Positions 1,687 through 34,654 of a DNA stretch of 36,531 nt are shown here, piece after piece. Below the pieces are notes generated by a model. The model ran no database searches, was not told where the DNA came from, and worked only from the letters and a program-made list of their open reading frames with translations. The stretch's first letter is position 1; every line of letters starts with the position of its first letter. The stretch spans positions 1 to 36,531 of IMG/VR virus record IMGVR_UViG_3300046484_000051; one strand, given 5' to 3'. The stretch comes from a virus. The position numbers and the translations under genes are program-made.

Positions 1687-2430
1687 ATGCTGATGGAACG
1701 ATCCCCAACATTCGCCGCGATCGCCACCGCGCTCGCCAAAGCGCAGGCAGGATTTCTGCCGATAGAGAAGAACTGCACGGCCCGAATCCAAAGCAAGTCC
1801 GGCGCGTCGTACACTTACGATTACGCGGACCTGTCTGCCATTCGAGATGCCACCGTGGCTGCACTCACCGCGAATTGCATTGCGCTGGTACATGCCGTCG
1901 AGACGGTATCCGAGGACGGATCGTCCCGCGTGCGCGTCCAAACCGAGCTCATCCATGAGAGCGGCGAGTTTTTCCGATCGCCCATCTTGGAGGCGCTGGT
2001 TGACTCCGGCGACATCAAACAAGTCGGGATCGCGACGACCTACTTCCGGCGGTACCAGGTGCAGACGTTATTGGGAATCGCGCCGGAAGAGGACAAAGAC
2101 GCCGATGGCGCCGGGGAGCGGAAAGAGAACTTCCGGTCGCCGCCTCCAGCCCCTTCCCAACAGGGCGCGCGGTTCACGTGCAGTCACGGACACAAGCACA
2201 CCTCGGCCGATGGAGCGAAGAACTGTAAGGACGGGACCCCGCCGCCTACGGAGGTCAAGTCCGAGGAGGAGAAGAATCCCGCCGCGCAGGCTACCGCTCT
2301 TGCTGAGCTCCAGGCGCTTCTCGACGACAAACAGTGGAACCCCGCGATCGGGGCGATTGGCAAGCTGTCCGGGCAGGCTCGCAAAGACGGCCAGGCCCTC
2401 TACAACGCTGCACGCCAGAGGGCACAATGA
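1687..2430 (+). CDS. erf: ERF-family single-strand DNA annealing protein
   Basis: 247 residues. Residues about 8-135 match the ERF superfamily: an N-terminal helix (FAAIATALAKAQAGF), the strand and loop SYTYDYADLSAIRD (41-54), and GDIKQVGIATTYFRRYQVQT (108-127), typical of ERF recombinases that anneal single strands and promote phage recombination. A Cys/His patch (CSHGHKHTSADGAKNC) and a charged helical tail follow. GGAG at 1677-1680 fits ATG 1687. The stop overlaps the start of the nuclease gene (ATGA), so the pair forms an exonuclease-annealase module. Confidence 0.92.
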   Translation: MLMERSPTFAAIATALAKAQAGFLPIEKNCTARIQSKSGASYTYDYADLSAIRDATVAALTANCIALVHAVETVSEDGSSRVRVQTELIHESGEFFRSPILEALVDSGDIKQVGIATTYFRRYQVQTLLGIAPEEDKDADGAGERKENFRSPPPAPSQQGARFTCSHGHKHTSADGAKNCKDGTPPPTEVKSEEEKNPAAQATALAELQALLDDKQWNPAIGAIGKLSGQARKDGQALYNAARQRAQ

Positions 2431-3641
2431 CGCTCCCCACGTTTTCTGCCCTGCCAAGGGCTTTCCGATGCCGGGCATCTACCGTCCTCCCCCGAGTCGA
2501 CCACGAGACCGAAGACGCTCGCGCCGGCACTGCCCGGCATCGGTACTTCCAGCGGGTCACCGAGATCTCGCAGGGGGGGAAGTCGCTCGAGGACGCGCGC
2601 TTCGCAGCGCTCGAAGAGGCCCCTGAAGCTGACCGCGCGATCCTGGAACTCATCCCTGTAGCCACCCTGCAGCTGCAGAGCGTGGCCGCGGAGGTCGCCA
2701 TCGCTCTCAACCTAGAGACCGGCCGAGCGCGCGAACTCGGCCGTGGGATCGAGCGTCAATACCAGGGCGTCCAACCGACCGAGATCGTGGGTACCGTCGA
2801 CCGGTTGGCGCTCCTGGGCTCGGATGCCATCTACCTGGGCGACTACAAGGGCCGCGCCCACCGCCGCGAACCCGCTGAGGACGAACAACTCCTGGCTGGC
2901 GCCGTGACCGCGTGTCATCTCCTGGGCCGCTCCGCTGCCGAAGTGGAGATCATCCGGATCGTCGACGATGAGCCGGTCCACCGGCGCGCGCGCCTGGAGG
3001 CCTTCGATCTTGACTCCTTCGAGTCGCGGCTGGTCGAGCTAGCAGGGCGGATCGAGGCCGATCAGGCCGGGTACACGACCGAACATGAGATCCCGCTGGC
3101 CACCACCGGCGATCACTGCCGCTATTGCGGAAGCGTCCCCTACTGCCCCGCGAAATTGGCACTCGCCCGCGCCGCGGTAGGAGGGGACTCGGAGGAATTA
3201 AAGCGGCTGAGCAAGGAGGGCGCCGCCCTCATCACCCCGGAGAACGCCGCCCGAATCTACACCCTCGTCCATGACGCCGAGGATGTGCTCAAGACCATCA
3301 AGGAGGCAGTAGCCGACTACGCGAGGGTTACCCCGTTCCAGCTCGAGGACGGCCGGATCTACGGAGTCCCGCCAGGCGCCGAGAAACGTGACATCCCGGA
3401 CGGCAAGAAGGCCCTCGCGGCGTTGAAGGAGCTCTTCGGCGAGGCCGCGAACGAGGCCGCGAAGGTGGAGGTCACGGTCTCCGGATTCGACAAGGCAACG
3501 CGCGCCCTGCTCGGCGGCGCGCTCAAACGTGGCGACCTCAAGGCGCACGCCGAGAAGGCCGAACAGATCCTCACGGCCCGTGGCCTGCTCCGGGTAATCC
3601 GGGGTGGAGTCGTCCGGCCCTTCACGAAGAAAGGGGCGTAG
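2427..3641 (+). CDS. PD-(D/E)XK exonuclease (DUF2800/Cas4-like), partner of ERF
   Basis: 404 residues from ATG 2427, inside the ERF stop. Visible elements: H38 in ARHRYFQ; the nuclease core GTVDRLAL (D124) followed by YLGDYKGR (D139, K141); then EDEQLLAGAVTAC in the position of the QxxxY motif. Three cysteines (C231, C234, C240 in CRYCGSVPYC) suggest part of an iron-sulfur or zinc site, as in Cas4/AddB-like nucleases. The C-terminal part after about 260 resembles DUF2800 phage proteins. By family it should resect DNA ends to give single strands for the adjacent annealase. A fourth Fe-S cysteine is not obvious. Confidence 0.82.
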   Translation: MTLPTFSALPRAFRCRASTVLPRVDHETEDARAGTARHRYFQRVTEISQGGKSLEDARFAALEEAPEADRAILELIPVATLQLQSVAAEVAIALNLETGRARELGRGIERQYQGVQPTEIVGTVDRLALLGSDAIYLGDYKGRAHRREPAEDEQLLAGAVTACHLLGRSAAEVEIIRIVDDEPVHRRARLEAFDLDSFESRLVELAGRIEADQAGYTTEHEIPLATTGDHCRYCGSVPYCPAKLALARAAVGGDSEELKRLSKEGAALITPENAARIYTLVHDAEDVLKTIKEAVADYARVTPFQLEDGRIYGVPPGAEKRDIPDGKKALAALKELFGEAANEAAKVEVTVSGFDKATRALLGGALKRGDLKAHAEKAEQILTARGLLRVIRGGVVRPFTKKGA

Positions 3642-5150: not shown

Positions 5151-5536
5151 CCGCGGAGAGTGGAGAGGGGCCCTTGAACGTACACGGCGAGTCCCGGGAT
5201 ACGAACAGCGCTCCGGGTACCGCGGACGGTAACAAGGCCCCTCTCGACTCCCCGCGACCCACAGGCCACCTTCCAAAGCCGTGCTCGAGCTGTGGAGCTC
5301 CGATCTTCTGGGCGCAGACCAAGTACGGGAGCTCCATGCCTGTCGATGCAGCTCCAGACTCCACCGGCAACATCGTCCTTTTTGATCGGGGAGGCAGCGT
5401 GATGGCTCTGGTTCTCGCCGCCGGCGAGACCCCACCGCCGAGCGGGATCCGGCGCAAGCCTCACTTCCAGAGTTGTCCGCATGCCGCCGACTGGCGAGCG
5501 GCGAAGCGCGCAAAGAAGGCGGCCGAGCGTGGCTGA
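5147..5536 (+). CDS. CxxC phage protein of a common small family
   Basis: 129 residues from ATG 5147, overlapping the preceding stop. After a disordered 45-residue N-terminus comes CSSCGAPIFWAQTKYGSSMP then VDAAPDSTGN, a pattern I know from small actinophage and proteobacterial phage proteins (CxxC, W, MPVD). HFQSCPHAADWR near the end gives further metal ligands. Basic C-terminal tail. Function unknown. Confidence 0.75.
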   Translation: MTAESGEGPLNVHGESRDTNSAPGTADGNKAPLDSPRPTGHLPKPCSSCGAPIFWAQTKYGSSMPVDAAPDSTGNIVLFDRGGSVMALVLAAGETPPPSGIRRKPHFQSCPHAADWRAAKRAKKAAERG

Positions 5537-5987
5537 CCTGATCAAGCTCGGTGACGTGGCCACCTGCCGGGAGTGCGGCGCTCAGTCTGAGCCGCTCCAC
5601 GATCGCGGCGGCCCACTCATCGCGACCTGGCGCAACGGGCCCTTCCCACGTCACCTCACCGCCGGCACCGCCTCGCCCATACGCTGCGCCTGGTGCAATG
5701 ACCTCGCGCTGGGGTTCCCGGCACTGATCAATCGGCCAACGGTCGGAGAGGCCTGGGAGGTGGGCGGGCCGCTCAAGAAGTACCTCGTTCCACCCTGGGG
5801 CCCGGCAGCCCTTGTGCCTCGGCCAGATCCGCACGCCGTCTGCTCCGGATGCAACGACAGCGGGACGCCTCTGGGCCGTGAGCGTGGCGAAGTCTTCTGT
5901 GCGTGCGCTGCCGGCCAGGAGCGCGTCCGGGGGGCTCGGCCACCTCCACCACTACCGAAACCCAAGGGTCAATTGGCGCTGTTCTAA
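5529..5987 (+). CDS. Zinc-ribbon protein ending in a clamp-binding motif (QLALF)
   Basis: 152 residues from GTG 5529, overlapping the previous stop by 8 bases. Cysteine pairs: C13-C16 (ATCRECGA), CAWC, CSGC and CAC. The last five residues are QLALF (148-152), an essentially ideal match to the bacterial sliding-clamp binding pentapeptide QL(S/D/A)LF, exposed at the C-terminus where such peptides work. The next gene encodes a clamp-like protein 13 bases downstream. The first 16 residues (IKLGDVATCRECGA) are shared with the protein at 6446-7408. I infer a DNA-associated zinc protein tethered to the host or phage clamp. Confidence 0.75.
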   Translation: MADLIKLGDVATCRECGAQSEPLHDRGGPLIATWRNGPFPRHLTAGTASPIRCAWCNDLALGFPALINRPTVGEAWEVGGPLKKYLVPPWGPAALVPRPDPHAVCSGCNDSGTPLGRERGEVFCACAAGQERVRGARPPPPLPKPKGQLALF

Positions 5988-6000
5988 AGGAGAACCAATC

Positions 6001-6453
6001 GTGAAGATCTCCAAACACTACAAGCCCGAGCTGTGCATCGACGCCCGCAGCAGCGAAAAGCGAATCCGGGCGCCGTACCTGGATCTCAAGGCGGAACGCT
6101 TGGTCGCGACGGACGGGTACATGATGGCCATGTTTCCTGCCAAAGTTGAGGGATCGGACCTCACCGCCAAACAGGTCCCGTTCGTTGACTATAAGTCCGT
6201 CATCACTCCGGCGCGAGACTCTGACCTAACCGTTCGCATCCACGTTCGTCGGTTGCTCGCACTCGCGCAGTCCCTCGGATCGGACGGGGTCGTGGAGGTG
6301 ACGGTGCCGGAGAACGCCTGCGATCCGATCACCGTGCGTGTCTCGGAGGGCGGGGAGTTTGGGCTGCTCATGCCCTGCCATGGGCCACTCTACGCTGACG
6401 TTGAGGAGCTCAACAAGATCCCTGCCCCGCTGGACGAGGACGACGATGAGTGA
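6001..6453 (+). CDS. Small sliding-clamp-like (DnaN-fold) phage protein
   Basis: 150 residues from GTG 6001 behind AAAGGAGA. RLVATDGYMMAMFP (33-46) is the signature turn of beta-clamp domains (bacterial DnaN: LVATDGHRLA). A second region, IHVRRLLALAQSLGSDGVVEVTV followed by FGLLMPC, resembles the second half of phage clamp-like proteins (from memory). A full clamp subunit has about 370 residues in three domains; this has room for one or slightly more, so it would need to oligomerise or act as a mimic or decoy. Acidic tail PLDEDDDE. The preceding gene ends in a clamp-binding motif. Confidence 0.7.
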   Translation: MKISKHYKPELCIDARSSEKRIRAPYLDLKAERLVATDGYMMAMFPAKVEGSDLTAKQVPFVDYKSVITPARDSDLTVRIHVRRLLALAQSLGSDGVVEVTVPENACDPITVRVSEGGEFGLLMPCHGPLYADVEELNKIPAPLDEDDDE

Positions 6454-7408
6454 CCACGGACAGATCAAGCTCGGCGACGTTGCTACCTGCCGCGTGTGCG
6501 GGGCGAAGAAGAGCCAGGTCGAGCAGTACCAATTCAACGGCCCGCATGGCCTGCGGGCAATCATCACGCTCGACGCCGGAGAGAAGGCCGAGCGCGAGCG
6601 TGACGATGCTCGGGCTCGGGTCAGTGAACTACGCTGGGAGGCGAACGGGTTGGCTGCCGAGAACTCCCGCGTAGCCACGCGCTGCAACGACGCGCTGGCC
6701 CGGACCGCGGAGCTAAATGCGTCCCAGGCACGACTTGCGGCCCTTGCCGAAAATTATCGGGCCCAATTGACAGCCGAACAGAGTCGCGGAAACGATTGTA
6801 ATATGGAGTGGTCGGACCGGCTCAACGTCTCCGAGGCCCGGGTCGCGGAGCTCGAGGATCGCCTAGAGCGCATCGCCTACGACCGGGATGAGCTGAGGGA
6901 GGGCGCGGATCGCTCCCATTGGGAGGTGAGCCAGGACGCCCGGGCCGAGATCGGGTCACTGAGGCGTGCGCTGGCGCCGTTCGCGGCCGTCTATGTGTCA
7001 TCCATGGATCGCCTGCCGGCGGGCTCGGTGGTCGTGGTCAACGGAGGGGAAGGACAGACACCGATCCCGGTAGTGGCCTTCAAGGCCGCCCGCGCCGCGG
7101 TCCCGTACGCCTTCATTGTGCCCGTGCTGGCGGAGGTAGCGCGCGGAGTCGGCTACGCGCTCGCGCTCCACGGGAGCATGACCAACGACCTCGACCTGGT
7201 CGCCGTGCCGTGGACGGACGATGCAGGCACTCCCGAGGATCTGGTCGATGCCCTCGGCGCTGCGATCAGGTGGACTCGGGAGGGCGACGCCTTTGGCCCC
7301 GAGCACAAACCGCATGGACGCATTGCGTGGAAGATTCCGCTTCTAGCTGGGGCCTCTATCGACCTGTCAGTGATGCCGCGAATCACGCCGGGGAAGGAGC
7401 GGCCTTGA
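6446..7408 (+). CDS. Zinc-module / coiled-coil / nucleotidyltransferase-like fusion
   Basis: 320 residues from ATG 6446, overlapping the clamp-like gene by 8 bases. Residues 6-20 (QIKLGDVATCRVCGA) duplicate the start of the 5529-5987 protein, with C15 and C18. Residues 45-170 are coiled coil. The C-terminal domain (about 220-312) has GYALALHGSMTNDLDLVAVPW (G243, S244; D248, D250) and later SIDLSVMP (D306), the GS...DxD...D layout of a minimal nucleotidyltransferase fold, though the GS-to-DxD spacing is shorter than usual. Similar C-terminal domains occur as stand-alone unannotated phage proteins (from memory). Substrate unknown. Confidence 0.7.
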   Translation: MSDHGQIKLGDVATCRVCGAKKSQVEQYQFNGPHGLRAIITLDAGEKAERERDDARARVSELRWEANGLAAENSRVATRCNDALARTAELNASQARLAALAENYRAQLTAEQSRGNDCNMEWSDRLNVSEARVAELEDRLERIAYDRDELREGADRSHWEVSQDARAEIGSLRRALAPFAAVYVSSMDRLPAGSVVVVNGGEGQTPIPVVAFKAARAAVPYAFIVPVLAEVARGVGYALALHGSMTNDLDLVAVPWTDDAGTPEDLVDALGAAIRWTREGDAFGPEHKPHGRIAWKIPLLAGASIDLSVMPRITPGKERP

Positions 7409-8570: not shown

Positions 8571-8782
8571 GCACCGCCCCCGCCAACAGGCGCAAACGCC
8601 TCCAGTACCGCGCCACGGTGCATTCGAGCCCCGAGGGCATCGCTCGGGCCCTGGCTTGGCTGGAGTCGCTACCGGATCTCGATACGCCCGTCGGGCCAGA
8701 TGGCGACCCCGCCCGGCAGCAAGACCGCGAGGACCATGGCGCGACGCTCGGCGAGGACGGCCCGCTTCGCTCGGCGAAGTAG
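8567..8782 (+). CDS. Hypothetical protein whose 3' half is antisense to the integrase gene
   Basis: 71 residues from GTG 8567 (GTGA overlap with the zinc ribbon gene). The N-terminal 34 residues (a basic stretch then SSPEGIARALAWLESLPDLD) look like real coding; the rest is read opposite the 3' end of the integrase gene (8669 onward) and is polar and unstructured. This may be a gene cut short when the integrase block was placed here. Confidence 0.5.
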   Translation: MSTAPANRRKRLQYRATVHSSPEGIARALAWLESLPDLDTPVGPDGDPARQQDREDHGATLGEDGPLRSAK

Positions 8783-10087
8783 TGCGGCCCGCTTTACCGT
8801 CTCGACCTCCGGTTGCCGGTCCGGAATGAGCCGCGCCCGTTCCAGGCTGCGCCGGGCCTGCTCCATCTCCCCCTGAAGCTCAGTCAACGCCCGTTCCGCG
8901 GCCTCCGGTGAGGCCCGACGCGCGACGCGCAAGAGCCGGTCTTCCTCCTTGGCCAGCTCGGCTAGCTTCGCTTCGGCGCTCTTCACCAGTTCCTTGGAAT
9001 CTGGGCCAGCCTTCGAGCGGGGAACAACATTTCGAGCAAGCCACACCAGGAGCTCATCCCAGGCGACGCCGTCAACCTCCTCGACTCGGTGCCATTTCTG
9101 ACACCCCTCGTTTCGGGCCGTCTGGTAGGACCTGCACACATAGTATAGGTACCGGAGTGCCCTCCGGCCGCCCTGCTTGACCCACATCGTCGATCCGCAC
9201 AGACCGCAGACCGCCCTTCCCCTGAGCAGCGCCGGCAGAAGGCCGGTCGCCGGTCGACCCGCGCGGCTGTTCTTGATCGCGAGCTGAGCCCGCTTCCAGG
9301 CCTCAAGGTCGACGACGGGCGGACACGTGAGCGCGACGCCGTTGGTGGTGAGTTCACCGATGGCCGAGCGATGCTTGACGAGTCGCGAAACATGGCCGGC
9401 TGACCAGGCCTCCGAGTGAAGCTGGCCCCGGAGTGCGGCGCCTACCGTCGGGATCTTCTCCGCGTTCAGATCCTTGGCGATCTGATTCAGGGATTTTCCG
9501 GCGAGTACGTCCCGGTAGATGCGCCGGTAGACCTTCAACCGCTCGGGGTCCGTGCCCCAGGTGCCGGCGACCTTGTTCCAGGTCCGCGCGTACGGGGGCC
9601 GACCCTGCAACTTGCCCTGCTGGGCTAGCCTCACCTTCGCCGAGTAGGTCCGTTCGAAGATGCGCCTGCGTTCGCGCGCCGCCACGATGGTCTGAAAGGC
9701 GAAGTCGAGCTCGCCCATCTCGCTCGCGGGGTCGATCACGTGGTTACCTGCGTCGACGATCACGGCGCCCGCATCTGCAACTGCACCGAAGATCGCGTAG
9801 CGCTCACGGGGGTCGGGGTGGCGGGTGAGTCGGTCGATGTGCCGGACGCGGACTTCGTCGAATGCCTTCGAGCCGGCCAACACGAAGAGCCGCTGGAGGT
9901 CCGGCCGCTGGTCGAGCGGTAGAGCGCCTGACAGGCCGGCCGCCCCTTCCTCGATGCGCTCGACCAGGATCCCCGGACGGGTCCTTCGAAGGGCATCTAG
10001 GGCTCGACGCTGGTCGGCGGGTGTGTCACGCTCTGCCTGGCTGGAACCTGAGACTCGGACCAACTCGACGAAACGGGGCTCTGGCAT
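8669..10087 (-). CDS. int: Large serine recombinase (integrase)
   Basis: 472 residues. N-terminal resolvase domain: LVRVSGSSQAE with the R-x-S-x-x-x-Q signature (R11, catalytic S13, Q17), then RVRHIDRLTRHP with conserved Asp-Arg-Leu-Arg. Recombinase domain from about 150 (GRPPYARTWNKV...). Zinc ribbon CGLCGSTMW then YVCRSYQTARNEGC, followed by a coiled coil rich in Glu/Arg (about 345-430) and a short beta tail. The size is at the small end for large serine integrases. By family it joins attP and attB through a 2-base staggered break. No clear ribosome binding site precedes the ATG; an in-frame stop 18 bases upstream excludes a longer form. Confidence 0.93.
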   Translation of the reverse strand: MPEPRFVELVRVSGSSQAERDTPADQRRALDALRRTRPGILVERIEEGAAGLSGALPLDQRPDLQRLFVLAGSKAFDEVRVRHIDRLTRHPDPRERYAIFGAVADAGAVIVDAGNHVIDPASEMGELDFAFQTIVAARERRRIFERTYSAKVRLAQQGKLQGRPPYARTWNKVAGTWGTDPERLKVYRRIYRDVLAGKSLNQIAKDLNAEKIPTVGAALRGQLHSEAWSAGHVSRLVKHRSAIGELTTNGVALTCPPVVDLEAWKRAQLAIKNSRAGRPATGLLPALLRGRAVCGLCGSTMWVKQGGRRALRYLYYVCRSYQTARNEGCQKWHRVEEVDGVAWDELLVWLARNVVPRSKAGPDSKELVKSAEAKLAELAKEEDRLLRVARRASPEAAERALTELQGEMEQARRSLERARLIPDRQPEVETVKRAALLRRAKRAVLAERRAMVLAVLLPGGVAIWPDGRIEIR

Positions 10088-33085: not shown

Positions 33086-33744
33086 GCCGTGTGCCCTCGG
33101 AGCGCCGCGGCATCGGACGCAACAGCCTCCAGAAGGGCGGTCCGCTCGGCCTCGAGGCGAGTGAGCCGATCGCGGATCTCCGTATCGACCTTTCGGCGCA
33201 GATCGAGCAGCTCTGGGACGGTGTAGCCGTAGAGCTGCTCGCCAACGACCCTCCGGTCAAGAGCTGACTGCACGGAGGCCGACTCCAGCGACGTCTTCCG
33301 CGCAGGTCGCGAAGGCGGGTGCCAGTCTCCCGCCGACATTCTGCACCGCTTGCACGTGGGGTTGATCGTCCCGCTGATGACGGATGCGCGCACGGTCCGC
33401 CCGCATCCCTTGTCGCACTTTTGCGCCATGGCTTTCTTCTCCTCCTGGTGGTGGACTACTTCCGTGGGCCTCTCCTGTATTTCGTCCACTTCTGCGGGGA
33501 ATGGCTGCACCGCAACTATTTCCCGGTGGACTAGTTTCGGCACTGCGCGTTTTTCGGTCCGGACATGAGGCACTGCGGCCGGCTCGAGCAGCTCGAGCGG
33601 GATGTGCCGAGGGTCGGTATTCGCGTGCCCCGAGCGGATGAGCCGGTCGAGCTCTGTCATCCGGTCGCGGTCAGCCTGCGCATAGGCGCGGCGCACGCCC
33701 TCGACCAGGGCACCGCCGTTGGCATCGAAACAGGGATCGATCAT
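33082..33744 (-). CDS. Zinc-finger and coiled-coil protein of the replication region
   Basis: 220 residues, ATG 33744 (ATGA overlap with the initiator). The middle has a zinc finger (CDKGCGRTVRAS... CKRC); the C-terminal 60 residues form a coiled coil (VPELLDLRRKVDTEIRDRLT). The N-terminal 60 residues include helical ADRDRMTELDRLIRSGHANT. Possibly a replication or regulatory factor next to the initiator. Confidence 0.6.
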   Translation of the reverse strand: MIDPCFDANGGALVEGVRRAYAQADRDRMTELDRLIRSGHANTDPRHIPLELLEPAAVPHVRTEKRAVPKLVHREIVAVQPFPAEVDEIQERPTEVVHHQEEKKAMAQKCDKGCGRTVRASVISGTINPTCKRCRMSAGDWHPPSRPARKTSLESASVQSALDRRVVGEQLYGYTVPELLDLRRKVDTEIRDRLTRLEAERTALLEAVASDAAALRGHTA

Positions 33745-34457
33745 GGTTCCTCCAGCCGCAGGGAGAGTCCAAACCGTTCGCGCGCCGCCTGTTCCAGACC
33801 GGCCGCGTGATCGCGCAAGTAGGCTGCGCCGTACTCGTCTACCGGCACGAGCGAGAGTGCCTGGTCACGGACTTTCGCTTCGGCTACGGAGCGCCCCAGA
33901 TGCTCAGCCGCGTCCGGGTAGCCGTTCGCGGCCGCCTCTGCCAGCAACTGTGTCCATTGCTCGCAGTCAAAGGGGGTAAGGGGGTTTAGTAGTTGGTTAT
34001 TCTGGTTACTATGGTTCTCTCTCTGCCCCACCCGTGCCCGGTCCGTGCCCGAGTCCGTGCCTGGTTCTGAGCGCACATCCTGATATTTGTCGTAATTGAC
34101 GATGCTTAGGACGCGCGGACCAGTGCCCGGTCCTGTGCCCAAAATCGGGTATTTCTCGGAAAGGAAAGGACCGTTTCCGCCTAAGGGACGATCGTCCGCC
34201 ATCAGGATCACCAAGGTCGTCCGGACCACCTTCACGGTACATCCCGATTCCGCGGCGATGGTTTCGAGTGAATGGTAGAGCTCGCCCCTGCCAACGTCGA
34301 ACCAGGTATCTTTCCATCGAGCCTTCTTCGTCCCCCAATTGGCGAGCAGGAGTAGAGTCACGAGAACGCCCTTTTGATCCGCGCGCAGCGACCGCCACAG
34401 GGCGGACCAGCGGATCTTCCGAAGGATGACGACAAAGCCGCGTTCGTGCTCACTCAC
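33741..34457 (-). CDS. Replication initiator / replisome organiser (winged helix)
   Basis: 238 residues from GTG 34457 (GTGA overlap). The N-terminal domain (about 5-95) is a winged helix as in phage replisome organisers: SALWRSLRADQKGVLVTLLL, then LANWG; SLETIAAESGCTVKVVRTTL; ending in IVNYDKYQD, the usual end of the domain. A flexible linker rich in Gly, Thr and Asn (about 110-160) follows, then a helical C-terminal domain. In DNA the linker region carries tandem short repeats (34034-34067 and 34123-34140), so the origin may lie inside the gene, as in lambda O. Confidence 0.75.
   Translation of the reverse strand: MSEHERGFVVILRKIRWSALWRSLRADQKGVLVTLLLLANWGTKKARWKDTWFDVGRGELYHSLETIAAESGCTVKVVRTTLVILMADDRPLGGNGPFLSEKYPILGTGPGTGPRVLSIVNYDKYQDVRSEPGTDSGTDRARVGQRENHSNQNNQLLNPLTPFDCEQWTQLLAEAAANGYPDAAEHLGRSVAEAKVRDQALSLVPVDEYGAAYLRDHAAGLEQAARERFGLSLRLEEP
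34034..34140. repeat. Iteron-like repeats inside the initiator gene, candidate origin
   Basis: Tandem GTGCCCGGTCC (34034-34044), GTGCCCGAGTCC (34045-34056), GTGCCTGGTTC (34057-34067), then exact GTGCCCGGTCC (34123-34133) and GTGCCC (34135-34140). AT-rich stretches flank or separate them (about 33985-34020 and 34078-34110) in an otherwise GC-rich genome. Confidence 0.45.
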
Positions 34458-34654
34458 CCCACCCTCCTCTCCACCGCCTCGATCACCCTCCAGCACGCGC
34501 GACATCTGCGCCGAAGGCGCCTGAACGCAGCCAGAGCCGGTCCAGTGCGGTAGGAGACCAGTACTTGGCCGTCGATGCCTTGGCTCGGTGCGCGCCCGCA
34601 GGCGAATACGGGGGACGCATTGCCGAGGTCCCAGAAATGGACGCAAGGCTTCAT
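34454..34654 (-). CDS. Small Cys-containing protein
   Basis: 66 residues from ATG 34654, overlapping the previous stop (ATGA). CVHFWDLGNASPVFACGRAP then a basic stretch (FRRLRRRCRACWRV). Two CxxC-like pairs; possibly zinc-binding. Ends GTGA with the initiator. Confidence 0.6.
   Translation of the reverse strand: MKPCVHFWDLGNASPVFACGRAPSQGIDGQVLVSYRTGPALAAFRRLRRRCRACWRVIEAVERRVG

Follow-up and report, generated by a model that had tools for sequence, protein, structure and literature searches.

The window analysed here, a stretch of 36,531 nucleotides from a virus (IMG/VR record IMGVR_UViG_3300046484_000051), encodes a 150-residue protein, P0001, whose relationship to the bacterial sliding clamp DnaN is well supported by sequence comparison and which is the smallest member found among the short DnaN-like proteins of phages. 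As judged from alignments, this family has shed the ring interface of DnaN and kept the pocket that receives the clamp-binding motif (CBM). From the deletions and the partly retained pocket of P0001 we infer, with a probability of about 0.5, that the protein is a ring-less, pocket-only derivative of the sliding clamp, which would bind CBM-bearing proteins of the host or the phage as a decoy or adaptor.

The short clamp gene and its relatives

As the original prediction had stated, the frame at 6001–6453 gives a 150-residue product with the DnaN signature (RLVATDGYMMAMFP is present in the translation). The size of about one domain proposed for it was also correct; approximately two half-domains align to DnaN. 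The product comprises the first half of DnaN domain II, the linker FVDYKSVI, the second half of domain III up to ..GLLMPCHGP, and an acidic tail. GC content by codon position (0.67/0.39/0.79) is gene-like.

6001–6453, plus strand: gene of P0001, the 150-aa short DnaN-like protein; open frame with a GTG start
5987–5993, plus strand: Shine-Dalgarno-like aaaggag ahead of the GTG at 6001
6103–6129, plus strand: codons of VATDGYMMA (P0001 residues 35–43), equivalent to V170–A178 of E. coli DnaN, pocket subsite I
6181–6204, plus strand: codons of FVDYKSVI (P0001 residues 61–68), equivalent to FPDYRRVL with pocket residues P242, R246 and V247
6361–6384, plus strand: codons of GLLMPCHG (P0001 residues 121–128), equivalent to the DnaN C-terminus YVVMPMRL with pocket residues V360 and M362–R365

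A profile built from 11 short phage clamp proteins, with the window protein left out, recovered P0001 with E=9.6e-7 as the sole match among 654 window ORFs, and a full-length DnaN profile matched it with E=5e-5. Single-sequence searches (E<=1e-3) of viral contigs, genome contigs, phages and plasmids returned no close relatives of P0001. A search for its neighbourhood with the window exonuclease as bait was also unsuccessful, while Rieske protein matches in the PDB (E of at least 0.4) were dismissed as chance. Among 195 Myxococcota genomes a single relative was found (E=6e-8).

L108:277–969, minus strand: P0003, 230 aa, in a Myxococcota genome; nearest P0001 homologue found

P0003 is 34% identical to P0001 and shares its KxS..Y.PELC start and FGxLMP end, but it is longer, retains FPDW and FGILMPLRL, and carries a long C-terminal extension. 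The gene upstream of it (L108:966–2462, minus strand) encodes a 498-aa protein of unclear family with C-terminal CxxC motifs, unlike the protein encoded upstream of P0001 (P0002, described below).

Further relatives were recovered by degenerate DNA-motif scans for VATDG[YH]x[ML]A, a sampling that is biased toward members carrying VATDG[YH]. Full-length phage DnaN genes were numerous among the hits. Another 30 were short ORFs (<=275 aa), most of them resembling DnaN, in which the motif falls at about position 30–70; scanning for the P0001/P0003 pair gave no further members. All of the short relatives compared with family profiles (14/14) match phrog_3007 and phrog_947 (processivity factor), and 13/14 match the Pfam DnaN central domain. 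P0001 itself has no direct match to phrog_3007 at E<=0.01. Its membership in this family follows from the match to the member profile (E=9.6e-7) and from P0003, which matches phrog_3007 with E=2.5e-10 and thus links the two. The motif order of the family, ATDG[HY]xxA, FPD[WY]xxVIP and xMPMR, appears in P0001 as ATDGYMMA, FVDYKSVI and LLMPCHG, the second and third of which diverge from the consensus. P0001 shares the layout of the phrog_3007 proteins: the start of domain II, the FPDW/Y..IP linker, then the latter half of domain III with its xMPMR end. P0001 is shorter (150 versus 164–260 aa) and lacks the equivalent of E. coli residues 197–240.

The short phage DnaN-like family is widespread and little studied. 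More than 100 cultured phages carry short 'Pol III beta' proteins, for whose role no paper was found in a limited search of the open-access literature. Cultured examples are ORF2 of Listonella phage phiHSIC, gp31 of BcepC6B and EP23p08. The phrog_3007 label 'RusA-like Holliday junction resolvase' appears to be wrong on sequence grounds, as these three proteins match the Pfam DnaN central domain and not RusA. The label has spread to RefSeq phage records (NC_005887.1, 28670–29185; NC_016566.1, 5926–6438). In Gordonia phage Meyran (L098, 13231–16014), a gene annotated as 'ParB-like nuclease domain protein' lies just upstream of an annotated sliding clamp.

The predicted fold supports, but does not prove, a clamp-like architecture. 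Two AlphaFold runs on P0001 gave pLDDT values of 50.8 and 59.5, and residues 1–30 stayed unresolved in the models. In Foldseek, the best 50 PDB matches of the better, still low-confidence model (pLDDT 59.5) are sliding clamps without exception, 49 of them from bacteria and one a PCNA, but these matches are weak (E of at least 0.02, TM about 0.27). In BFVD the top hits, at probabilities of up to 0.99, are to short phage 'Pol III beta' proteins. The earlier description of the protein as clamp-like is carried by sequence, through the profile match and P0003, with weak support from the fold.

Ring interface and binding pocket

Compared with the PDB, the short-clamp profile matches DnaN chains only (E to 3e-23), and the alignment falls into two pieces, domain II and then the last ~55 residues of domain III; Anaeromyxobacter DnaN gives a similar two-piece match with a skip between. 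E. coli DnaN 136–366, a reference that agrees with the PDB chain matched by the profile, was aligned with P0003 and 18 short proteins, of which the window protein is one; the alignment is uncertain in the variable middle region. E. coli residues 257–311, with the interface residues I272, L273, E298 and E304, have no counterpart in 19/19 short proteins. Domain I, with I78, R103 and F106, is missing as well, as the short-clamp profile begins at E. coli residue 136. The conserved ring-interface residues named in the literature, I78, F106, I272 and L273 (PMC11139829), therefore all fall within parts lost from the family. In P0001 the counterpart of 197–240 is absent as well. While a ring clamp has six half-domains in three domains per monomer, P0001 has approximately two. 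These are homologous to those of DnaN and retain part of the CBM pocket, but domain I, the first half of domain III and the ring-interface residues of DnaN are lacking.

The pocket shows the opposite trend. Residues listed as lining it were taken from PMC11139829, and the comparison was rerun without those fixed by the search pattern in order to avoid circularity, leaving 13 pocket columns. Identity to E. coli DnaN is 67% at these columns and 15% at the 145 others (permutation p<=5e-5). The loss of domain I and of 257–311 on the one hand, and this difference on the other, underlie the conclusion that the ring interface was shed and the pocket kept.

P0001 itself follows the family only in part; phiHSIC ORF2 and EP23p08 retain more of the pocket. 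R152, T172, G174, V247, M362 and P363 are identical to DnaN, L177M and V360L are conservative, and L155A, H175Y, R176M, P242V, R246S, N320H, Y323R, M364C and R365H are changed. Of the two subsites, the one for the LF of the motif (I) is partly kept, whereas the one for the Gln (II) is mostly changed. Because several pocket residues differ, peptide binding by P0001, above all of the Gln half, may be weak or altered. These substitutions, together with its position as the smallest member found, could also mean that P0001 is what degeneration has left of a phage clamp gene and that it has no part in peptide binding. This is the reading to which we give least credence, as the frame is intact, the ribosome-binding site is strong, codon-position GC is gene-like and the six pocket residues listed above are retained.

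If the proposed phage-made clamp is understood as a ring, it is disfavoured, since the whole family has lost the residues of the DnaN ring interface. Repeated domains make up the rings of clamps in general, and short proteins could in principle oligomerise through new interfaces into a miniature ring, a true processivity clamp for the host Pol III. Many of the short relatives carry the annotation Pol III beta subunit, and some carriers (BcepC6B, EP23) encode their own DNA polymerase, which would agree with such a role. It is nevertheless decidedly unlikely, given that the known interface residues are deleted in 19/19 proteins, that P0001 also lacks half of domain II, and that none of the window ORFs scanned was recognised as a clamp loader. 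A clamp mimic, another of the proposed possibilities, fits better than a ring clamp. Without a ring, short clamps would not tether a polymerase by encircling DNA, but they could compete for clamp-binding proteins or recruit them.

The QLALF-tailed neighbour

5529–5987, plus strand: gene of P0002, a 152-aa Cys-rich (putative zinc) protein with four Cys pairs, a Pro/Lys-rich tail and a terminal QLALF
5970–5984, plus strand: codons of QLALF, the terminal clamp-binding motif
6446–7408, plus strand: gene after the short clamp; its start overlaps the stop of the P0001 gene (ATGAGTGA)

The gene preceding 6001–6453 had been predicted to end in QLALF at the very C-terminus, and the translation bears this out, its last residues being exactly ...PPLPKPKGQLALF. 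The motif is preceded by PPPPLPKPKG and thus sits in a flexible terminus. P0002 is alone among the 36 main window ORFs in having a C-terminal motif of the clamp-binding type. Shuffling of residues gave 0 exact QLxLF motifs per window and 0.02 relaxed motifs within 5 residues of the end. Among CBM consensus classes, QLxLF has the highest affinity (PMC11139829), and a crystal structure of the E. coli clamp with AcQLALF is available (PDB entry 4k3p). P0002 matches no protein family in a family profile search, and single-sequence searches (E<=1e-3) found no credible homologue in viral contigs, genome contigs, phages or plasmids; a weak match in G198 (E=2e-4, one internal stop) was rejected because the cysteines do not line up convincingly in the local alignment.

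Whether P0001 and P0002 work together was addressed at other loci. At 30 other short clamps, the ORFs lying no more than 3.5 kb away number 2143, and none of these has a C-terminal CBM. The gene pair, whose co-occurrence in other phages the original prediction had proposed to check, was thus not seen there, and the idea of a minimal paired hijack system gains no support from these loci. The pairing may exist in this lineage, but present data do not make it a conserved system, and the claim for it is weak. P0002 may be a client of the P0001 pocket or, alternatively, bind the host clamp as a separate ligand. The pocket of DnaN from Anaeromyxobacter, the host genus of a related prophage, is intact (RYNLNG, VATDGHRL, FPDYKQVIP, VVMPMRI), and binding of QLALF to the host clamp is for this reason an equally good reading of the motif as binding to P0001.

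It is accordingly quite possible, at somewhat less than even odds, that the two proteins are functionally independent, with QLALF tethering P0002 to the host DnaN ring while the short clamp acts otherwise. The fit of the motif to the highest-affinity consensus, the intact host pocket as opposed to the diverged one of P0001, and the absence of a CBM-tailed neighbour at any of the 30 other short clamps all speak for independence. On the other side, the two genes are adjacent and tightly packed, and the sole C-terminal CBM among the main ORFs of the window directly precedes its sole clamp-like gene. A private two-gene adaptor is a further reading, which we regard as unlikely. In it, a clamp fragment with only the pocket would join a Cys-rich, QLALF-tailed partner of its own and replace the clamp–CBM contact, so that a phage protein that binds nucleic acid is either brought to the host replisome or held off the host ring.

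The N-terminus of the 6446–7408 product, IKLGDVATCRVCGA, almost repeats that of P0002, IKLGDVATCRECGA. The near-duplicate module, IKLGDVATCR[EV]CGA, is encoded at 5529–5600 and 6446–6520 and flanks the short clamp gene, so that a CxxC module looks as if it had been duplicated around this gene. At another locus, a small ORF (L083:7732–7980, minus strand) directly downstream of a 262-aa short clamp has an internal QLPLF.

Phage context and possible function

The phage is Mx8-like, a virus of soil bacteria. Its terminase (terL) is 56% identical to that of Myxococcus phage Mx8 and 68% identical to that of a prophage in Anaeromyxobacter oryzisoli; Mx8-type families also account for the matches of the head, portal, amidase and tail genes. 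Neither P0001 nor P0002 found a match in Mx8 or in the eight related viral contigs searched. Judged by its gene order next to the Anaeromyxobacter prophage, the window seems to be a nearly complete genome, but it may be incomplete. The original prediction had noted the absence of a polymerase and a helicase. Neither was found among the main window ORFs scanned, but a helicase loader is encoded.

33741–34646, minus strand: DnaD-like helicase loader (E=6e-6)

The loader makes it likely that the phage recruits the host DnaB and Pol III and, together with the lack of a polymerase and a helicase, agrees with a probable dependence on the host replisome.

In the preferred reading of P0001 as a ring-less pocket, two half-domains and a linker would form the CBM pocket at the boundary of DnaN domains II and III, with domain I, the second half of domain II and the first half of domain III missing. 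The protein would stay monomeric or form small oligomers, leaving DNA unencircled, and its pocket would bind QLxLF-type peptides or the wrench of the clamp-loader delta subunit, thereby diverting or recruiting Pol III-linked host proteins during phage replication. The clamp loader is a plausible target because delta binds monomeric DnaN ~50-fold more tightly than the dimer (PMC11139829).

The same preference of delta for the monomeric clamp would also suit a poison of the host ring, in which P0001 pairs with a DnaN monomer or captures the clamp loader and host replication is shut off. Precedents exist in Twort gp168 and G1 gp240, which bind DnaN, and in N4 gp8, which binds the loader subunit HolA, all leading to shutoff of host replication (PMC3594737). 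Compared by description, these proteins are similar to P0001, as preferentially read here, in being phage products that act on the host clamp or its loader, but they would work by binding, not by mimicking the pocket, and they are not reported as DnaN homologues or fragments (PMC3594737). We consider poisoning very unlikely, since the surfaces through which DnaN contacts its partner are deleted from P0001, and a temperate phage, itself in need of host replication, has less cause to stop it.

If the ring-less pocket reading is true, mimicry of the clamp pocket would be a phage strategy for steering host replication, and there would be reason to correct the misleading phrog_3007 label. The clamp pocket is the target of antibiotics such as griselimycin, and short clamps would then offer a small natural probe of it.

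The early region of the phage encodes an Erf-type annealing protein, a PD-(D/E)XK exonuclease and an HNH protein. The first two lie in overlapping frames (1687–3641, plus strand) and form a recombination pair. On the minus strand, 8669–10087 encodes a 472-aa protein of the serine-recombinase type that matches phage integrase phrog_95 and DNA invertase phrog_125.
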